64,000 bases of DNA from Campylobacterales bacterium (GCA_016930915.1 JAFGFU010000025.1:62001-126000); one strand, 5' to 3'; shown: positions 43,918 to 52,370, counted from the first letter of the stretch. The notes: generated by a model not told the origin, from the letters alone. A program made the numbers and translations.

Positions 43918-44058
43918 CGTTCACCTCGTTTTTACGAGATGATTTGCAAGAAGTATTCCTTACATGTAAAGAATCATAAAAACATAAAACTGAACAATAT
44001 ATTTGACATTTATACATGAAAATTATAAAATGTCTAAAATATTATTCAAGGAATCATT

Positions 44059-44301
44059 ATGGACTTAAGAGAGTTTGGCACACACATGGCACACCTTCGT
44101 AAAGCCAAAAAAGTCTCGCAAGAGCAACTCTCTCGTGACCTGAGCATCTCTCGTGCTACCATCAGCTCCCTTGAAAATGGCACAAGCTCCGATGTGGGCA
44201 TCAAAAAAATACTCCAAATCCTTGACTACTTAGGGTATGAGCTTACATGTAAAGAAAAATCACCCTTTCCTACGTTTGAGGAGTTAAGAGATGAAAGATA
44301 G
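44059..44301 (+). CDS. hipB: HipB-like HTH antitoxin
   Basis: XRE HTH (QLSRDLSISRATISSLENGTSSDVGIKKILQILDYLGYEL) overlapping hipA-like ORF. Confidence 0.85.
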   Translation: MDLREFGTHMAHLRKAKKVSQEQLSRDLSISRATISSLENGTSSDVGIKKILQILDYLGYELTCKEKSPFPTFEELRDER

Positions 44302-45487
44302 TTTACATGTAAAAGTTTCCAACGAAAGAGTAGGAAGCATACTGCTTGAAAATAACGAATACATCTTTGACTACACGACTGGGAATCCAGACGCTTTTGT
44401 CTCTTTAAGTATGCCTGTGCGAGCCAAAAGTTATGCCAACCCAAAACTCCACCCCATCTTTGAAATGCACTTACCTGAGGGGTATCTTCTTTCCATCATC
44501 AAAAAACATTTTTCAAAAATCACCAAAACCGATGACTTTGGACTGCTCCAGCTTATGGCGCAGAGCATCAAAGGTAAGCTTACATATGAAGCAGATACTA
44601 CGCCCAAAGACGAAATTCTTAGCTTAGATACGCTTCTTCACCCAAAAAGTGAAACGCTTTTCGATGAACTCGTAACCCGTTTTGCCCTCAACTCACCGCT
44701 CAGTGGCGTACAGCCCAAAGTCTTAGCCAAAGTGCGTGACAAAGTCACCTTACCACTGCAAGAGTACATCGTCAAGGCATGGGGTGAGGAGTACCCGCAC
44801 TTAGCACTCAATGAATTTTACTGCATGAGCATTGTCAAACGTGCTGGCATAGAAGTACCTGAATTCTACCTATCCGATGACAACAAGCTCTTCATTATGA
44901 AGCGTTTTGACATCAAAGAGGATGGAAGCTATCTAGGATTTGAAGATATGTGTGTACTTCAAGCCCGTCAAGCCGATGAAAAATACGAAGGCTCCTACGA
45001 ACACATCGCCAAAAGTATCAAAACCTTTGTCTCGCCCAAACACAAAAAAAAGGCGTTGAGAGACTTTTTTAAGATGATGGTCATCAACACCCTCGTGCAA
45101 AATGGTGATGCCCACCTCAAAAACTTTGGCGTGCTCTATGAAAATATCCAAAACATTTGGCTTGCACCTGCGTATGATATTGTCTGCACGACACTCTACA
45201 TACAAAAAGACATCCCTGCTTTGCATCTTTTAGGAAGTAAAAAATGGTGGAGTAAAGCGTTTTTGCTCCGTTTTGGCAAAGAGAGTTGTGAACTTAGTTC
45301 TAACGACACACTCATGCTTTACGATGAATGTGTTGAAGCGATACGCGTCACTGCGAATGATGTGAAAGAGCGCATTGAGGAGGAAAGTGATTTACATGTA
45401 AAGGCATTTTTGAGCAGTTTGGTGGAAGTGTTTGAAAGGGGTATAGAAAGTGAGAAGTTTAATCCTGACTTTCTTTCGAACCTATAA
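44291..45487 (+). CDS. hipA: HipA-like serine/threonine kinase toxin
   Basis: HLPEGYLLSIIKKHF; LSGVQPKVLAKVRDK; NGDAHLKNFGVLYEN; overlaps hipB. Confidence 0.9.
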   Translation: MKDSLHVKVSNERVGSILLENNEYIFDYTTGNPDAFVSLSMPVRAKSYANPKLHPIFEMHLPEGYLLSIIKKHFSKITKTDDFGLLQLMAQSIKGKLTYEADTTPKDEILSLDTLLHPKSETLFDELVTRFALNSPLSGVQPKVLAKVRDKVTLPLQEYIVKAWGEEYPHLALNEFYCMSIVKRAGIEVPEFYLSDDNKLFIMKRFDIKEDGSYLGFEDMCVLQARQADEKYEGSYEHIAKSIKTFVSPKHKKKALRDFFKMMVINTLVQNGDAHLKNFGVLYENIQNIWLAPAYDIVCTTLYIQKDIPALHLLGSKKWWSKAFLLRFGKESCELSSNDTLMLYDECVEAIRVTANDVKERIEEESDLHVKAFLSSLVEVFERGIESEKFNPDFLSNL

Positions 45488-45512
45488 GTAACCCTTTTTT
45501 AACCTCCACAAT

Positions 45513-47243
45513 TTAAAAACCTGAAGAGATACCTGATCCAATTTTTAAAGTTTCTAAATCTATGACTTCATTATCATTATATCTTGTAGTGAGATAGATT
45601 CCTATTTCATCGTAGGAAATTTTATTTAAAATAGTTGTGATTTCATCGTAATAATTCAAATTATCAAAAATTCTTTCTTGTTTTTTACCTCTTTTTAGTG
45701 AATTCAATAATATTTGTTTTTTATAATTGAATTTTTCTATGGAAATAATGTCAATTGGAAGTATGTCGTGCAAAACTAGAGTAAGTATTGCGTCAAAAGA
45801 ATTATCAAGAATTGTTTCATCTGAAATTTGAATTATAGGTTTTTCTTTTAAATTACTTTTCCATAGTTCACAGAACGATAAAATTGTATTACCATTAAAT
45901 TTCACAAGCTCACTTACATCATTATTCAATAAAGCAATGATTAAAATTCTAATTTCTATAAATTCTTTTTCATCGGGTATTAGAAGAAGAATTTTTTCTA
46001 TTGATTCTTTCCCTGAAAAAATCAGTAACCTATTAATACAAAAACGATATTTTTGTATTAATAATCTTCGCTCGAATCCATTTAAAGTATTTATATCAGG
46101 CAATTTTTCAAGAATGCTAAAAAGTTCATGTTTTAGTTTCTCAGCGATTTCTAAAAAATTATGCGATTTGCCGAATAAATACAATAGGTATTCATAATTA
46201 TCAAAAAGTAAACTTTTGTAAAATTTTACTTGTCTTTTATATTGGCTATTAGCAAATATTTTATCAAAAGGAAGGAAAATATTTTTATCATTGAATTCTT
46301 GTTTTAACTTACCTAATTTTTTAGGGTTTAATGCAAGATAGATAGTAAGGGAAGTCATAAAATCAGAAAACTCATCATTAATTTTGTCAATATCATCAAA
46401 AGAAATTTTACTCCATTGCTCATAATTAACTAAATCTGTCTTTTTTTCATTCAATTCTAATCCAATAGGAAGTAGTTGTTTTATTTTGGCTCTGATTTCA
46501 TCTAGTTGGTTTTCTTGGTTGCTTATAACAACAAGGTCATCCACATATCTAAAATAATAATGAGTTCCAAAATGTTGTGTCATCTTTAAATCAAAATCTT
46601 CTAAATATAAATCTGCACAAAGATGCCCAAAATCTGGATTTGCAGCCACTCCTTGATTTGTAGCCTCTAACAAAGAATTTATAAATACATTTAGTTGTTT
46701 TTTTGTTTTTTTCTCACACTGCGACATTTCTATTTTGTTATTAAAAACTTCATATAATTGTTTTTGATTTACACTTGGATAAAATTTCTTCAAATCAAAA
46801 ATATACGCAAAATTACCTTCTGCCAGCGCTAATTCAATTTTTTCATTTCTTTTTTTGTATCCATGCATAAAAAAAGCAAAGTTTTGTCCTGCATTTTTAT
46901 AGAAAGGCAATCTATAACTATAAACATTTGGATTGTCATTGTATATCTTATTTTCTTGTAGTTTATCTATTAGTATAGCTTCTGCCAATAACGTTAGAGG
47001 CGATCCTATTGTTAATTCACGGTATTCTATTCCTTGTGGTTCTTTTTCTTTAAAAACTTTAAAATTTCTATAATGCCATTTATTTGTTGTTTGAAGTTGT
47101 CGTGAAATAATTGCAGATAGTAATTTGATTTGATTATCTTTGGGACATGAGTCTATAAGTGCTCTTAGTGCAATATATGTAATTGGTGAACTTCTTCTTG
47201 CCGAATTCAAAGCTTTTGTAAATAGTAATTCAAAATTATTCAT
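45513..47243 (-). CDS. Uncharacterised reverse transcriptase with ~250-aa C-terminal extension
   Basis: RT motifs: YIFDLKKFYPSVNQ (A), GVAANPDFGHLCADLYLEDFD (B region), YFRYVDDLVVIS (C), LELNEKKTDLVN (D). Confidence 0.88.
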   Translation of the reverse strand: MNNFELLFTKALNSARRSSPITYIALRALIDSCPKDNQIKLLSAIISRQLQTTNKWHYRNFKVFKEKEPQGIEYRELTIGSPLTLLAEAILIDKLQENKIYNDNPNVYSYRLPFYKNAGQNFAFFMHGYKKRNEKIELALAEGNFAYIFDLKKFYPSVNQKQLYEVFNNKIEMSQCEKKTKKQLNVFINSLLEATNQGVAANPDFGHLCADLYLEDFDLKMTQHFGTHYYFRYVDDLVVISNQENQLDEIRAKIKQLLPIGLELNEKKTDLVNYEQWSKISFDDIDKINDEFSDFMTSLTIYLALNPKKLGKLKQEFNDKNIFLPFDKIFANSQYKRQVKFYKSLLFDNYEYLLYLFGKSHNFLEIAEKLKHELFSILEKLPDINTLNGFERRLLIQKYRFCINRLLIFSGKESIEKILLLIPDEKEFIEIRILIIALLNNDVSELVKFNGNTILSFCELWKSNLKEKPIIQISDETILDNSFDAILTLVLHDILPIDIISIEKFNYKKQILLNSLKRGKKQERIFDNLNYYDEITTILNKISYDEIGIYLTTRYNDNEVIDLETLKIGSGISSGF

Positions 47244-48174
47244 TATTTCTCTTATATAGTTTTACTGTGACATTGCCTTTTTTTATAACCTCTTCTTTTA
47301 TTGGCTCCCACCAACAATATGTATTAGATGAAGTAGCATTGTTTTCAATAAATAATTGAACAAAAAAATCTTGTATATCTTCAAAAATTTTACCTAATGA
47401 TCTAAAAAAGAAATTTGCTTTTATGGAGTTAGGTTCTATCCATAAAAAAGTACTATATTTCAATCCAAGTCTTTCTGTGATATGTTGGAGAGACCTTTCA
47501 ATTTGTGAAAAATTAACCTCATTACCTGCAAAGCCACTAAAAGCTGAAGTCATGACGTAATATTCATTTATTGAAATATGTCTAGTCGTACTAAAAAAAT
47601 AATCCATTAATTGGCTGGTTTGCGTTGGAATACATGCATCCCATTCATAAGTATGATATATAACACGAATGCCCGCATTCAGTAGATATTGATCAAGATT
47701 ATTTAAAAGGCTTTGATAAATTTGTAATGCTGCTGGAGAAATATCAGCAGCTACAATATGGATATTTAATGGAAGTGTAGGAAGGAGTCTTTTTAGTCGT
47801 AATTCAACAAGAGTGGTAAGTAAAGATAAAATGTGTCCACCTGTTCCACAAGCTAAATCTAAAATAGAAATATTACCTTTTGAAAAAGTTGAAAAAATAT
47901 CTGTTTGTATATTTGAAAATTTCTTATCAGGGTCTAGTGTAATATGAATAACTCTTGTACTAGAATTTACAAATCTATAGGCAAAATGTTCTATTGCTTC
48001 AGTTGTACTTGAACCGCCTATAGGATGATTTTTACCATCAAATGTTTTGGCTAGTTTATATGCATTATATTCATGAAGATGCTCAATATATTTTGTTTCT
48101 AGTTCTGTACATAACTTTACAGCTTGTTCATTATGAAGCCATAATTCTTCGGGCAAATCGTTAGAATTTATCAC
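47236..48174 (-). CDS. SAM-dependent methyltransferase-like protein overlapping the RT start
   Basis: Motif I ILDLACGTGGHILSLL, motif II IVAADISPAALQIYQ; 8-nt overlap with RT ORF; no DPPY/NPPY-type catalytic motif seen. Confidence 0.75.
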   Translation of the reverse strand: MINSNDLPEELWLHNEQAVKLCTELETKYIEHLHEYNAYKLAKTFDGKNHPIGGSSTTEAIEHFAYRFVNSSTRVIHITLDPDKKFSNIQTDIFSTFSKGNISILDLACGTGGHILSLLTTLVELRLKRLLPTLPLNIHIVAADISPAALQIYQSLLNNLDQYLLNAGIRVIYHTYEWDACIPTQTSQLMDYFFSTTRHISINEYYVMTSAFSGFAGNEVNFSQIERSLQHITERLGLKYSTFLWIEPNSIKANFFFRSLGKIFEDIQDFFVQLFIENNATSSNTYCWWEPIKEEVIKKGNVTVKLYKRNNE

Positions 48175-48280
48175 TATGTAGCCTTAATAATTAGGAAAAA
48201 TAAATTTTTAAGTGCTATTGTATCTTGTTTATAAAATATTTATATACATAATCAAAAGCTGATGTACTCAAACAAACCCT

Positions 48281-48682
48281 TCACCTCACCCAATTCTCAA
48301 CCTCCAACCCCTCAACTCTCGCAAACTCTTTCATATTATTGCTCACAAGTACAACACCCAGTGATTTGGCGTGAGCGGCGATAAGCGTGTCTAGCGAGCC
48401 GATGGGTTGTCCTTTTTTTTCTAAATCTGCCCTTAGTTTTCCATACTCCAAAGCGGCTTTATAGTCGTAATCCGCAACATCAAAAGGAATAAGAAAATGC
48501 TCAATGGCTTTGAGATTTTTTTCAACATATTGACTTTTATGCGCTCCATAAATAAGTTCTGAAACCGTGATAGAAGAGAGGATGATGTCGCCTACATTGC
48601 ATTTTTTGAGCTCTTCTAAAACGCTTTGAGGTTTGTTTTTAATGATGTAGATGCAAATGTTGGTGTCGAGCATTTTTTTCAA
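48281..48682 (-). CDS. vapC: VapC-like PIN-domain toxin
   Basis: MLDTNICIYIIKNKP; TVSELIYGAHKS; GSLDTLIAAHAKSLGVVLVSNNMKEFARV. Confidence 0.92.
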   Translation of the reverse strand: MKKMLDTNICIYIIKNKPQSVLEELKKCNVGDIILSSITVSELIYGAHKSQYVEKNLKAIEHFLIPFDVADYDYKAALEYGKLRADLEKKGQPIGSLDTLIAAHAKSLGVVLVSNNMKEFARVEGLEVENWVR

Positions 48683-48918
48683 AACAGCTCCTCTCTCTCT
48701 TGTGTCGGCTGAACCCTTTGGGCTAAAAAATCATCGGAAAAGTTATCCAGTGTGTCAAACATTTTCTCCCAAACGCTTTTATCATTTTTAGGGAAAATCA
48801 AAATAGCCCCATCGATTTTTTTGATAATCACCTCATTTTGATGCGGAAAGCGAAACTCTTTGGGAAGGCGTATGGCTTGGCTTTGACCGTTTTGAAAGAG
48901 TTTTGCAGTAGAAGTCAT
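48679..48918 (-). CDS. vapB: VapB-like AbrB/SpoVT-fold antitoxin
   Basis: AKLFQNGQSQAIRLPKEFRF; overlaps vapC. Confidence 0.9.
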   Translation of the reverse strand: MTSTAKLFQNGQSQAIRLPKEFRFPHQNEVIIKKIDGAILIFPKNDKSVWEKMFDTLDNFSDDFLAQRVQPTQEREELF

Positions 48919-48931
48919 AGTAGCTCCTTTT

Positions 48932-48958
48932 AGTATATATTTAAAAGTATATATTTAA
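48932..48958. promoter_or_regulatory. Tandem AGTATATATTTAA repeats upstream of vapB (probable promoter/operator)
   Basis: AGTATATATTTAA at 48932-48944 and 48946-48958. Confidence 0.55.
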
Positions 48959-49047
48959 CCAATGCAAAAGTCAATGTTATTTTGTATCTCATTAAAAATC
49001 AAGCTATAATCCCATCAAAAAAAGGTCTGTGCGTGCGTTGTGAAAAA

Positions 49048-50732: not shown

Positions 50733-51023
50733 GTGGATAAAGAAACAATACTCTCTTATCTTAAAAATCACAAAGACGAGTTTACACAAAAATATCATAT
50801 TTTAGGGATGGCACTCTTCGGTTCTTTTGCACGTAATGAAAACTGTGAAGAAAGCGATATTGATATTGCTATTGATACCACTATGAGTGATTATTTTTTA
50901 CTCTATGATTTTAAGGAATCCCTAGAAAAAGCATTTCATAGAAAAGTAGATGTTGTCAGACTAAGAGAAAAAATGAACCCTTCTTTAAAAAAGAGAATTG
51001 TAAGGGATGGCATTTATGTATGA
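50733..51023 (+). CDS. MNT-type minimal nucleotidyltransferase
   Basis: GSFARNENCEESDIDIAID NTase motif (GSxARxxxxxxSDxDI); GTG start. Confidence 0.88.
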   Translation: MDKETILSYLKNHKDEFTQKYHILGMALFGSFARNENCEESDIDIAIDTTMSDYFLLYDFKESLEKAFHRKVDVVRLREKMNPSLKKRIVRDGIYV

Positions 51024-51396
51024 TAAAGAACTCGTGCTTGATATCTTAACTCAAACGATTGAGGCTGTTTTAATAGTACAAGAACGATGTGCCTCTGCAC
51101 ACTGTCAAAATGATTTTATGGATACAAAAGAAGGTCAAGAAAAACTTGATAGCATTTGTATGAAGCTTATTGCCATTGGGGAAAGTTTAAAAAATATTGA
51201 TAAAATCACCGATAAAAAACTTTTGAACTCCTACCCTAGCGTTGAATGGAAAAAGATAAAGGGGATTCGAGATTTCATATCGCATCACTATTTTGATTTG
51301 GACGCAGAAGTTATTTTTGGTATTTGTAAAAATCATATTGCTCATGTGCTCAGTATCTTACAAATTATCAAAAGAGACTTAGGAAAACAGCACTAA
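51007..51396 (+). CDS. HEPN-domain (HepT/DUF86-like) protein
   Basis: KKIKGIRDFISHHYFDLD (RxxxxHxY-type HEPN motif region); overlaps MNT ORF. Confidence 0.88.
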   Translation: MAFMYDKELVLDILTQTIEAVLIVQERCASAHCQNDFMDTKEGQEKLDSICMKLIAIGESLKNIDKITDKKLLNSYPSVEWKKIKGIRDFISHHYFDLDAEVIFGICKNHIAHVLSILQIIKRDLGKQH

Positions 51397-51425: not shown

Positions 51426-52370
51426 TTAATCGTTGATTATTTTTTCAATTTTTTTATGTAATTCTTTTATATCTTTTGAAGTTAGAGTAGAATTTCCTGC
51501 TGAATCAATTTGATAAAATAAAGTTGCTGAATAATTAACTTTTGACCCATCTCTATAAGGATAAACCTCAATATGCAAAGGATAAGATTTATTAGCTACT
51601 ATCAAATTAAATGAATTTTGCTTTTTAGATTCAGTGATACTTTCATTACCACCCCAACTATACAAACCCATAAGCCTTTTAAAATTTGCATAAATAGATT
51701 TATCTGGATATTGTGTATTTATTTCTCCTTTAAACTCTACTTGTCTCTCTATAATTATGGGCTTATTTTTAAGAGAATCGAACATTTCTTTTGCATCCTT
51801 TTCAAGAATGGAAAGATTATCTAATAAAGGATGTTCTATACCAATTGCATCAGTATGGGCTTTTACAATATATTGGGTTGGAAAATCAGCTCTTATATTA
51901 AAAATATTTTTAGAATTTATTTCAACCATCATCGATGATTCAAAAATAACCTTGGTAAGGCTTTCTCCATTTTCACATTTTTGATAACAATTGTTATCGC
52001 CATTCACATAATTAATAGTTAATATATTATTATTAAAATTAATAGTTTTACCCTTAATATTACTAAATGAAACACTTTTATTTCTATAACTTTGCTTATT
52101 TTTGTAGCCACTATTATTTGACATATGATTTATAATGTTTTTTATAATATCATTTTTTGATAAAGGGTTATCATTGATATCATCATTAAATTGATATAAA
52201 ATATCAACCGTACTATTTGTTTGTGATTGTATTTGTTTGGGTGGTAATGGACTATTCAATCCTGCACATCCACTAAAACCTACGCACAATGTGATACCAA
52301 CTATTTTCATTATTTGGTGTAAATACATCTTAATATAACTCCTTTGTTTTTTTAATTTTTTTAATTTCAT
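51426..52370 (-). CDS. Uncharacterised lipoprotein
   Basis: Lipobox-like VGFSGCAGLN; AT-rich; no recognised domain. Confidence 0.6.
   Translation of the reverse strand: MKLKKLKKQRSYIKMYLHQIMKIVGITLCVGFSGCAGLNSPLPPKQIQSQTNSTVDILYQFNDDINDNPLSKNDIIKNIINHMSNNSGYKNKQSYRNKSVSFSNIKGKTINFNNNILTINYVNGDNNCYQKCENGESLTKVIFESSMMVEINSKNIFNIRADFPTQYIVKAHTDAIGIEHPLLDNLSILEKDAKEMFDSLKNKPIIIERQVEFKGEINTQYPDKSIYANFKRLMGLYSWGGNESITESKKQNSFNLIVANKSYPLHIEVYPYRDGSKVNYSATLFYQIDSAGNSTLTSKDIKELHKKIEKIIND

Follow-up and report, generated by a model that had tools for sequence, protein, structure and literature searches.

A conserved gene pair of a UG36 reverse transcriptase and a methyltransferase-like protein, pointing to an uncharacterised two-protein anti-phage system

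The locus described here lies in a 64 kb stretch of Campylobacterales DNA, which we call the window, and consists of two minus-strand genes (Table 1). The first encodes a methyltransferase (MTase)-like protein, referred to below as the partner, and its end overlaps the start of the second, a reverse transcriptase (RT) gene, by 8 nt. A first-pass annotation had proposed both open reading frames (312 aa and 576 aa), and their coordinates and overlap were confirmed. The RT motifs quoted there were found in the RT, with YVDD invariant across 33 aligned relatives, and the partner contains MTase motif I (ILDLACGTGGH) and motif II (AADIS) and lacks a DPPY or NPPY motif, as had been claimed. The pair is not a chance arrangement of reading frames. 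The RT matches a defence RT model with 415 bits, an intact pair with 89.5% DNA identity is present in G011, a genome of another species of the genus, and pairs of the same kind are found across phyla.

Table 1. Features of the RT-partner locus in the window
Feature	Coordinates	Strand	Basis or remarks
UG36 RT gene, 576 aa, ATG start	45513..47243	(-)	ORF, motifs and PADLOC RT_UG36 match
MTase-like partner gene, 312 aa, GTG start; first of the pair	47236..48174	(-)	ORF
Conserved 62-nt leader	48175..48236	(-)	55/62 identical in G011; further upstream 13/45
5' outer margin of the BLAST alignment	48237..48280		Adjoins the vapC stop codon; no clear conservation

The Pfam matches of the flanking genes place the pair between hipBA and vapBC. 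Its base composition differs from that of these neighbours, with a GC content of 26% for the RT and 30% for the partner, against 42% for hipBA, 40% for vapBC and 39% for the whole window, so that the AT-richness remarked upon in the first-pass annotation is real. The same applies to the reported lack of palindrome copies. The 64 kb window contains 36 copies of the palindrome TTACATGTAA, against 0.13 expected, and none of them lies between 45402 and 49161; those nearest to the gap are at 45392 and 49162. It resembles a genome-wide signature repeat, and is missing from vapBC as well. That neither the RT-MTase pair nor vapBC has a copy is consistent with recent acquisition of the insert.

The pair is located in a hotspot (43918-48981) between genes for an aldo/keto reductase and an aminotransferase. 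The same interval measures only 0.1-0.3 kb in four genomes (G002, G003, G018 and G021). In most remaining genomes of the genus, it holds 1.5-8 kb of cargo that differs between them. In G013 and G022, hipBA occupies this site together with other cargo, and G007 has a relative of vapBC in the interval. Conversely, the G011 copy of the pair has no toxin-antitoxin (TA) genes beside it. We therefore regard the TA modules as unrelated hotspot companions and reject them as parts of the system. The TA-rich setting described earlier is genuine, and the pair lives without these modules elsewhere.

Several other genes in and near the hotspot deserve mention in their own right. In G013 (L152:1718-6467) and G022 (L153:350-5095), the place of the RT-MTase pair is taken by a conserved five-gene cassette encoding a WYL/HTH regulator, a 539-aa protein of unknown function, a TerB-like protein, and two further unknowns of 188 aa and 251 aa, possibly another uncharacterised system. 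The G007 hotspot contains a Thg1-like gene (L154:5076-5804, minus strand) of the tRNA-His guanylyltransferase family of 3'-5' polymerases, which scores just at the Pfam cutoff and would be unusual cargo for a TA or defence locus. It is found next to vapBC, together with the gene for an unassigned 345-aa protein (L154:4030-5067, plus strand). In the window itself, an MNT/HepT-type nucleotidyltransferase-HEPN pair at 50733-51396 makes a third TA module within 7 kb, and an AT-rich (28-30%) ORF at 51426-52370 (minus strand) codes for a 314-aa protein that begins like a lipoprotein and matches nothing in Pfam.

Profile comparison assigns the RT over its full length to UG36, a UG/Abi group that has already been catalogued, so that the RT itself is not new. 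It aligns to positions 4-553 of the 557 in the PADLOC model RT_UG36 (PDLC03775) with the 415 bits given above, compared with 87 bits for the runner-up, Drt3a, and it exceeds the Pfam RVT_1 cutoff. Nine diverse relatives of the RT also have RT_UG36 as their top model (286-634 bits). An assignment to a group II intron maturase, retron or diversity-generating retroelement (DGR) clade would have refuted the reading of the first-pass annotation, and is not what the profiles indicate. The score against the maturase model TIGR04416 is 52 bits (cutoff 300), and the Rfam scan detected no intron RNA; for retron_St85 the score is 44 bits (cutoff 235), without an Rfam match to any ncRNA family. More generally, the RT remains far below the cutoffs of the NCBIfam models for group II introns, retrons, Drt2 and Drt3a. 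Phage records yielded only a distant, partial match to the RT.

The catalytic motifs are located in the N-terminal domain of the RT, with motif A around D150, YFRYVDD at 230-236, and K268. D150, Y155, Y230, R232-D236, K268 and W277 are invariant in the alignment of 33 RTs. Tyr23 is conserved in all but one of them, and is the sole near-invariant tyrosine that cannot be placed in a usual RT motif. It is a candidate priming residue on the basis of the alignment, protein priming itself being an inference. An AlphaFold2 model built with 31 sequences (pLDDT 89.5, pTM 0.90) predicts an entirely helical C-terminal region (residues about 283-567), which accounts for the approximately 250 residues that the first-pass annotation had left unassigned. 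The best Foldseek matches, with alignments over roughly the whole chain, are AbiA, DRT4, Abi-P2, AbiK, DRT6 and UG15, whereas the RT domains of DRT2, retrons and maturases align over only about 300 columns. As the TM scores to the Abi RTs are modest (0.3-0.44) and the rmsd exceeds 12 A, a description of the modelled C-terminus as alpha-Rep-like (HEAT-like) is suggestive rather than proven.

The partner is also modelled with high confidence (pLDDT 92.9, pTM 0.92). Foldseek relates the model to class I SAM-dependent MTases, with E values of 1e-7 to 1e-5 for METTL17, HNMT and METTL5, and further matches to cap MTases, including cap N7 enzymes, and to GRAS proteins. Since METTL17, GRAS proteins, histamine MTase, METTL5 and cap MTases all match with TM scores of 0.3-0.5, no substrate can be assigned from the fold. 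Among 32 aligned partners, the motif I glycines are nearly invariant (G110 in all, G112 in 31). Nearly every sequence has Asp or Glu at the motif II position, only one of the 32 lacks D179, and E247-P248 is invariant. One subclade, the Aliarcobacter group, reads ILYLPCGSGAG and thus lacks the usual Asp of motif I. At the motif IV position, most partners have SAFSG, SNFSG or ANF(S/N)G-like residues, and a (D/N/S)PPY motif is absent from all 32, which rules out a DNA adenine or N4-cytosine MTase of the restriction type and bears out the earlier view that the protein is not the DNA-adenine MTase of a restriction-modification (R-M) system. Matches of the partner to Pfam are all below threshold, those to NCBIfam are below the curated cutoffs, and PHROGs gave nothing significant. 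PADLOC has no model for the UG36 partner, which matches only the N-terminal part of RT_UG35 (31 bits) and, weakly, the generic mad2 model (15 bits). From the motifs and the predicted structure, we conclude that the partner is an undescribed class I SAM-MTase-like protein, enzyme-like and distinct from DNA amino-MTases. Its MTase activity is an inference from fold and motifs and has not been shown, and the same is true of its substrate.

A scan of a genome collection with five UG36 RTs as queries returned 28 full-length relatives (L024-L051) from Campylobacterota, Pseudomonadota, Verrucomicrobiota, Kiritimatiellota, Acidobacteriota, Armatimonadota, Riflebacteria, Elusimicrobiota and Bacteroidota, and from one contig binned as Paceibacterota. 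All 2586 bases of the latter (L027, JAGOTK010000017.1, labelled Candidatus Paceibacterota) align to Aliarcobacter faecis with 99.7% identity, and judging by this identity the contig is probably mis-binned, so that we count about nine phyla. One of the 28 loci (L043) was excluded as untestable, because the RT begins 8 nt from the contig end. In each of the remaining 27, a profile search identified a partner homologue directly upstream of the RT. The overlap of the two genes measures 1-43 nt in 25 of these loci, and a gap of 3 nt separates them in another; in L037, an in-frame TTG further upstream gives the appearance of a long overlap. The scan also returned more distant RT loci (L052-L103), among which the UG35 fusion discussed below is the only partner match. 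A loss of the MTase beside RT homologues would have spoken against a coupled system, and was seen at none of the testable loci.

The association also holds at the level of whole genomes. Among 398 genomes of the class to which the window belongs, five encode a full-length UG36 RT, and the partner profile finds those same five and no others (three additional weak RT hits cover the RT core only and were not counted). By simple counting, assuming independent placement, the chance of this coincidence is about 1 in 8 x 10^10. In the genomes tested, the RT is never found without the partner, and in this sense the pairing is obligate. The two proteins appear to have diverged together: their distance matrices correlate with r = 0.954 (27 pairs), and none of 10,000 label shuffles exceeded 0.48. 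Some loci are near-duplicates (for example L025 and G382), and the trees were based on 30 distinct pairs. Both trees contain the clades {window, G011, Sulfurimonas}, {G422, Sulfurovum, Methylomonas}, {Aliarcobacter/Arcobacter} and {Paraburkholderia, Polaromonas, Aquabacterium}, as well as a clade of 14 members from multiple phyla. Host phyla are mixed inside clades, which means that both genes are transferred horizontally together.

The boundaries of the unit can be estimated from copies at different genomic sites. The homology between the window and G011, where the pair occupies a different site, stops on one side at the RT stop codon (45513) and on the other just past the vapC stop codon. 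The leader contains a promoter-like GATACAAT about 40 nt ahead of the start codon, recognised by eye and not listed by the consensus scan, and a purine-rich AAGG just 5' of the GTG. Two loci of the Aliarcobacter group, L017 and L026, are 96% identical from 9 nt before the partner start to the RT stop, and have different neighbours on either side. As judged from these alignments, little beyond the two genes and about 62 nt of upstream sequence belongs to the transferable unit. Neither comparison revealed a conserved flanking ncRNA, and Rfam has no match at the pair. A segment of 283 bp downstream that is common to L017 and L018 was considered as an ncRNA and rejected, since it is missing in L026. 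With homology limited to the genes and at most 62 nt, there is no room outside the genes for a cis-encoded ncRNA of the DRT2, DRT3, DRT9 or DRT10 kind. Within the genes, no block of synonymous constraint was consistent between comparisons: a quiet block at RT codons 271-300 between the window and G011 was not found between L017 and L018. The power of this analysis is low, and an RNA inside the coding sequence is not excluded.

At some other loci, the pair has defence genes nearby. On the Aliarcobacter faecis plasmid pAFAEC (L017:3547-7298), it follows genes for a DUF4297 LmuA-like protein and LmuB (770 bits). The lmuB and MTase genes overlap by 1 nt, so that Lamassu and the MTase-RT pair may be co-translated, and type I R-M genes are located nearby. 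Neighbours at other loci include type I R-M genes, a GajB-like UvrD helicase, and a PADLOC "Ankyrin" protein. Five of ten individually scanned neighbours had PADLOC matches; the ten were hand-picked, and there was no matched control.

A related MTase-like domain occurs in UG35. The protein encoded at L063 in an Anaerolineae genome (989 aa) scores 982 bits against RT_UG35 (PDLC03774). A region close to its N-terminus, around motifs I-II (DVGCGAGAA), matches the partner family with 44 bits and is followed by the match to the RT family. UG35 thus resembles UG36 in combining an MTase-like domain with an RT, but the domain is fused N-terminally to the RT in a single polypeptide, the RT is only distantly similar (77 bits for L063 against the UG36 model), and the similarity of the MTase-like regions is confined to about 80-145 residues around motifs I-II.

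Taken together, the constant association of the UG36 RT with its partner points to an uncharacterised two-protein anti-phage system, and supports the earlier reading of the locus as an RT-based system with a coupled MTase. In our preferred explanation, to which we assign a probability of about 0.6, the pair is a self-contained, horizontally moving member of the UG/Abi (DRT) systems in which synthesis by the RT is coupled to the partner. Its function is inferred. The anti-phage role rests on the family and on the defence genes in the neighbourhood and has not been shown; we found no phage-challenge data for UG36 in the literature examined. The RT and partner would form a complex, in which the RT would make DNA without a cis-encoded RNA template, probably primed by protein as in AbiK, DRT4 and DRT1. 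This synthesis would be coupled to the SAM-dependent activity of the partner, and we favour the direction in which DNA synthesis by the RT controls the MTase. Phage infection would shift the balance and phage growth would stop, probably via abortive infection. The MTase might act on the RT, on its DNA product, or on a host or phage target, and the choice between them is undetermined.

That the RT works without a template is not certain, because the next-best matches of its domain by sequence are Drt3a and UG17, which are RNA-templated. The leading rival explanation builds on this point. As DRT3a and DRT10 do, the RT could make repeat DNA from a structured RNA, whether embedded in the genes, provided in trans or taken from the host, with the MTase modifying that RNA or maturing the complex. 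The studied members among these nearest non-self models (Drt3a and UG17/DRT10) use cis ncRNAs (PMC12632851, PMC13174585), and MTases that act on RNA, such as METTL5 and the cap N7 enzymes, are among the Foldseek hits of the partner. However, the comparisons with G011 and L026 leave no conserved flank of more than 62 nt upstream and none past the RT stop, Rfam gives no match, no consistent synonymous constraint was seen, and the modelled C-terminal architecture is suggestive of Class 1 RTs, so that we consider RNA templating doubtful without dismissing it. It is also conceivable, if rather unlikely, that the pair behaves like a TA module. A toxic RT would then be held in check by the MTase-like protein encoded upstream, serving as antitoxin or chaperone with no need for its catalysis, until phage infection frees the RT. 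The gene order with the restrainer first, the translational overlap in nearly all pairs, the tight co-evolution, the location among TA modules and the deviant motif I of the Aliarcobacter group could all be accommodated. A pure scaffold would not need the SAM-pocket glycines G110/G112 or residues such as D179 and E247-P248, yet these are strongly kept across phyla, and a fusion as in UG35 would be unusual for a releasable restrainer.

Two other explanations depart further from RT-based immunity. An AT-rich unit with a patchy distribution that moves between sites and phyla might be a selfish element or a domesticated mobile retroelement without a role in defence, its MTase protecting the nucleic acid of the element. 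We regard this as improbable, in view of a unit that comprises only two genes and a short leader and has neither an integrase nor an intron RNA, of the several proven defence members of the UG/Abi group, and of the Lamassu and R-M neighbours. Finally, the SAM motifs and the R-M genes near some loci might suggest a restriction-type system in which the MTase supplies the modification and the RT is incidental. This is hardly tenable and already contradicted, as no partner of the 32 has the (D/N/S)PPY motif, the unit contains no nuclease, and none of the 398 genomes has the partner alone. Among all these readings, we retain the coupling of RT synthesis to the partner as the best explanation.

The UG36 RT group and its presumed role in defence are known and catalogued, and the new result is the obligate partner of the RT. 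A description of this partner, or of any MTase-coupled DRT, was not found in the literature searched; the main UG/Abi classification survey was outside the scope of the search, and we do not claim priority. The DRT systems studied so far act via unusual DNA, which may be toxic or sequestering (DRT4, DRT9), code for protein (DRT2), or control an attached enzyme (DRT1). A conserved, co-evolving MTase partner would bring a second chemistry to RT immunity, and would represent a protein family that Pfam, NCBIfam and PHROGs do not contain. More tentatively, and with the balance of our judgement against it at present, UG36 and UG35 may together represent an undescribed class of RT immunity. A dedicated MTase family would then be the obligate catalytic partner of a template-independent polymerase, and RT synthesis would direct or switch on a SAM-dependent modification, of nucleic acid, protein or a metabolite, that halts the phage. 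The cassette is only 2.8 kb long, and both active sites are open to point mutants.

Among the known systems, Class 1 UG RTs have a helical-repeat domain and synthesise protein-primed, untemplated DNA, whereas Class 2 RTs copy cis ncRNAs (PMC12632851, PMC13174585). With respect to predicted domain architecture, the modelled UG36 RT comes closest to the Class 1 systems AbiA, AbiK, Abi-P2, DRT4 and DRT6, which share the combination of an RT with a helical C-terminal domain, provide the best full-length structural matches, and, like UG36, have no cis ncRNA that could be found. The structural similarity is modest and the sequence identity low, and an obligate MTase partner has not been described for these systems in the literature examined. 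With respect to the RT domain alone, sequence profiles instead place DRT3a and DRT10/UG17 (Class 2) nearest. DRT10 also depends on an obligate second protein, a SLATT protein in that case. In contrast to UG36, which offers no space for it outside the genes, these systems have a cis-encoded ncRNA template. The catalogued UG36 model itself covers the RT only and does not include the partner. The absence of a flanking ncRNA, the helical C-terminus and the obligate, enzyme-like partner lead us to place UG36 nearest to the logic of DRT1, in which template-free, protein-primed DNA controls an attached nitrilase and causes abortive infection (PMC13275509). Both would couple a defence RT to an enzymatic activity, in DRT1 without an RNA template. 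The nitrilase of DRT1 is part of the same chain, whereas the MTase-like protein of UG36 is encoded separately.
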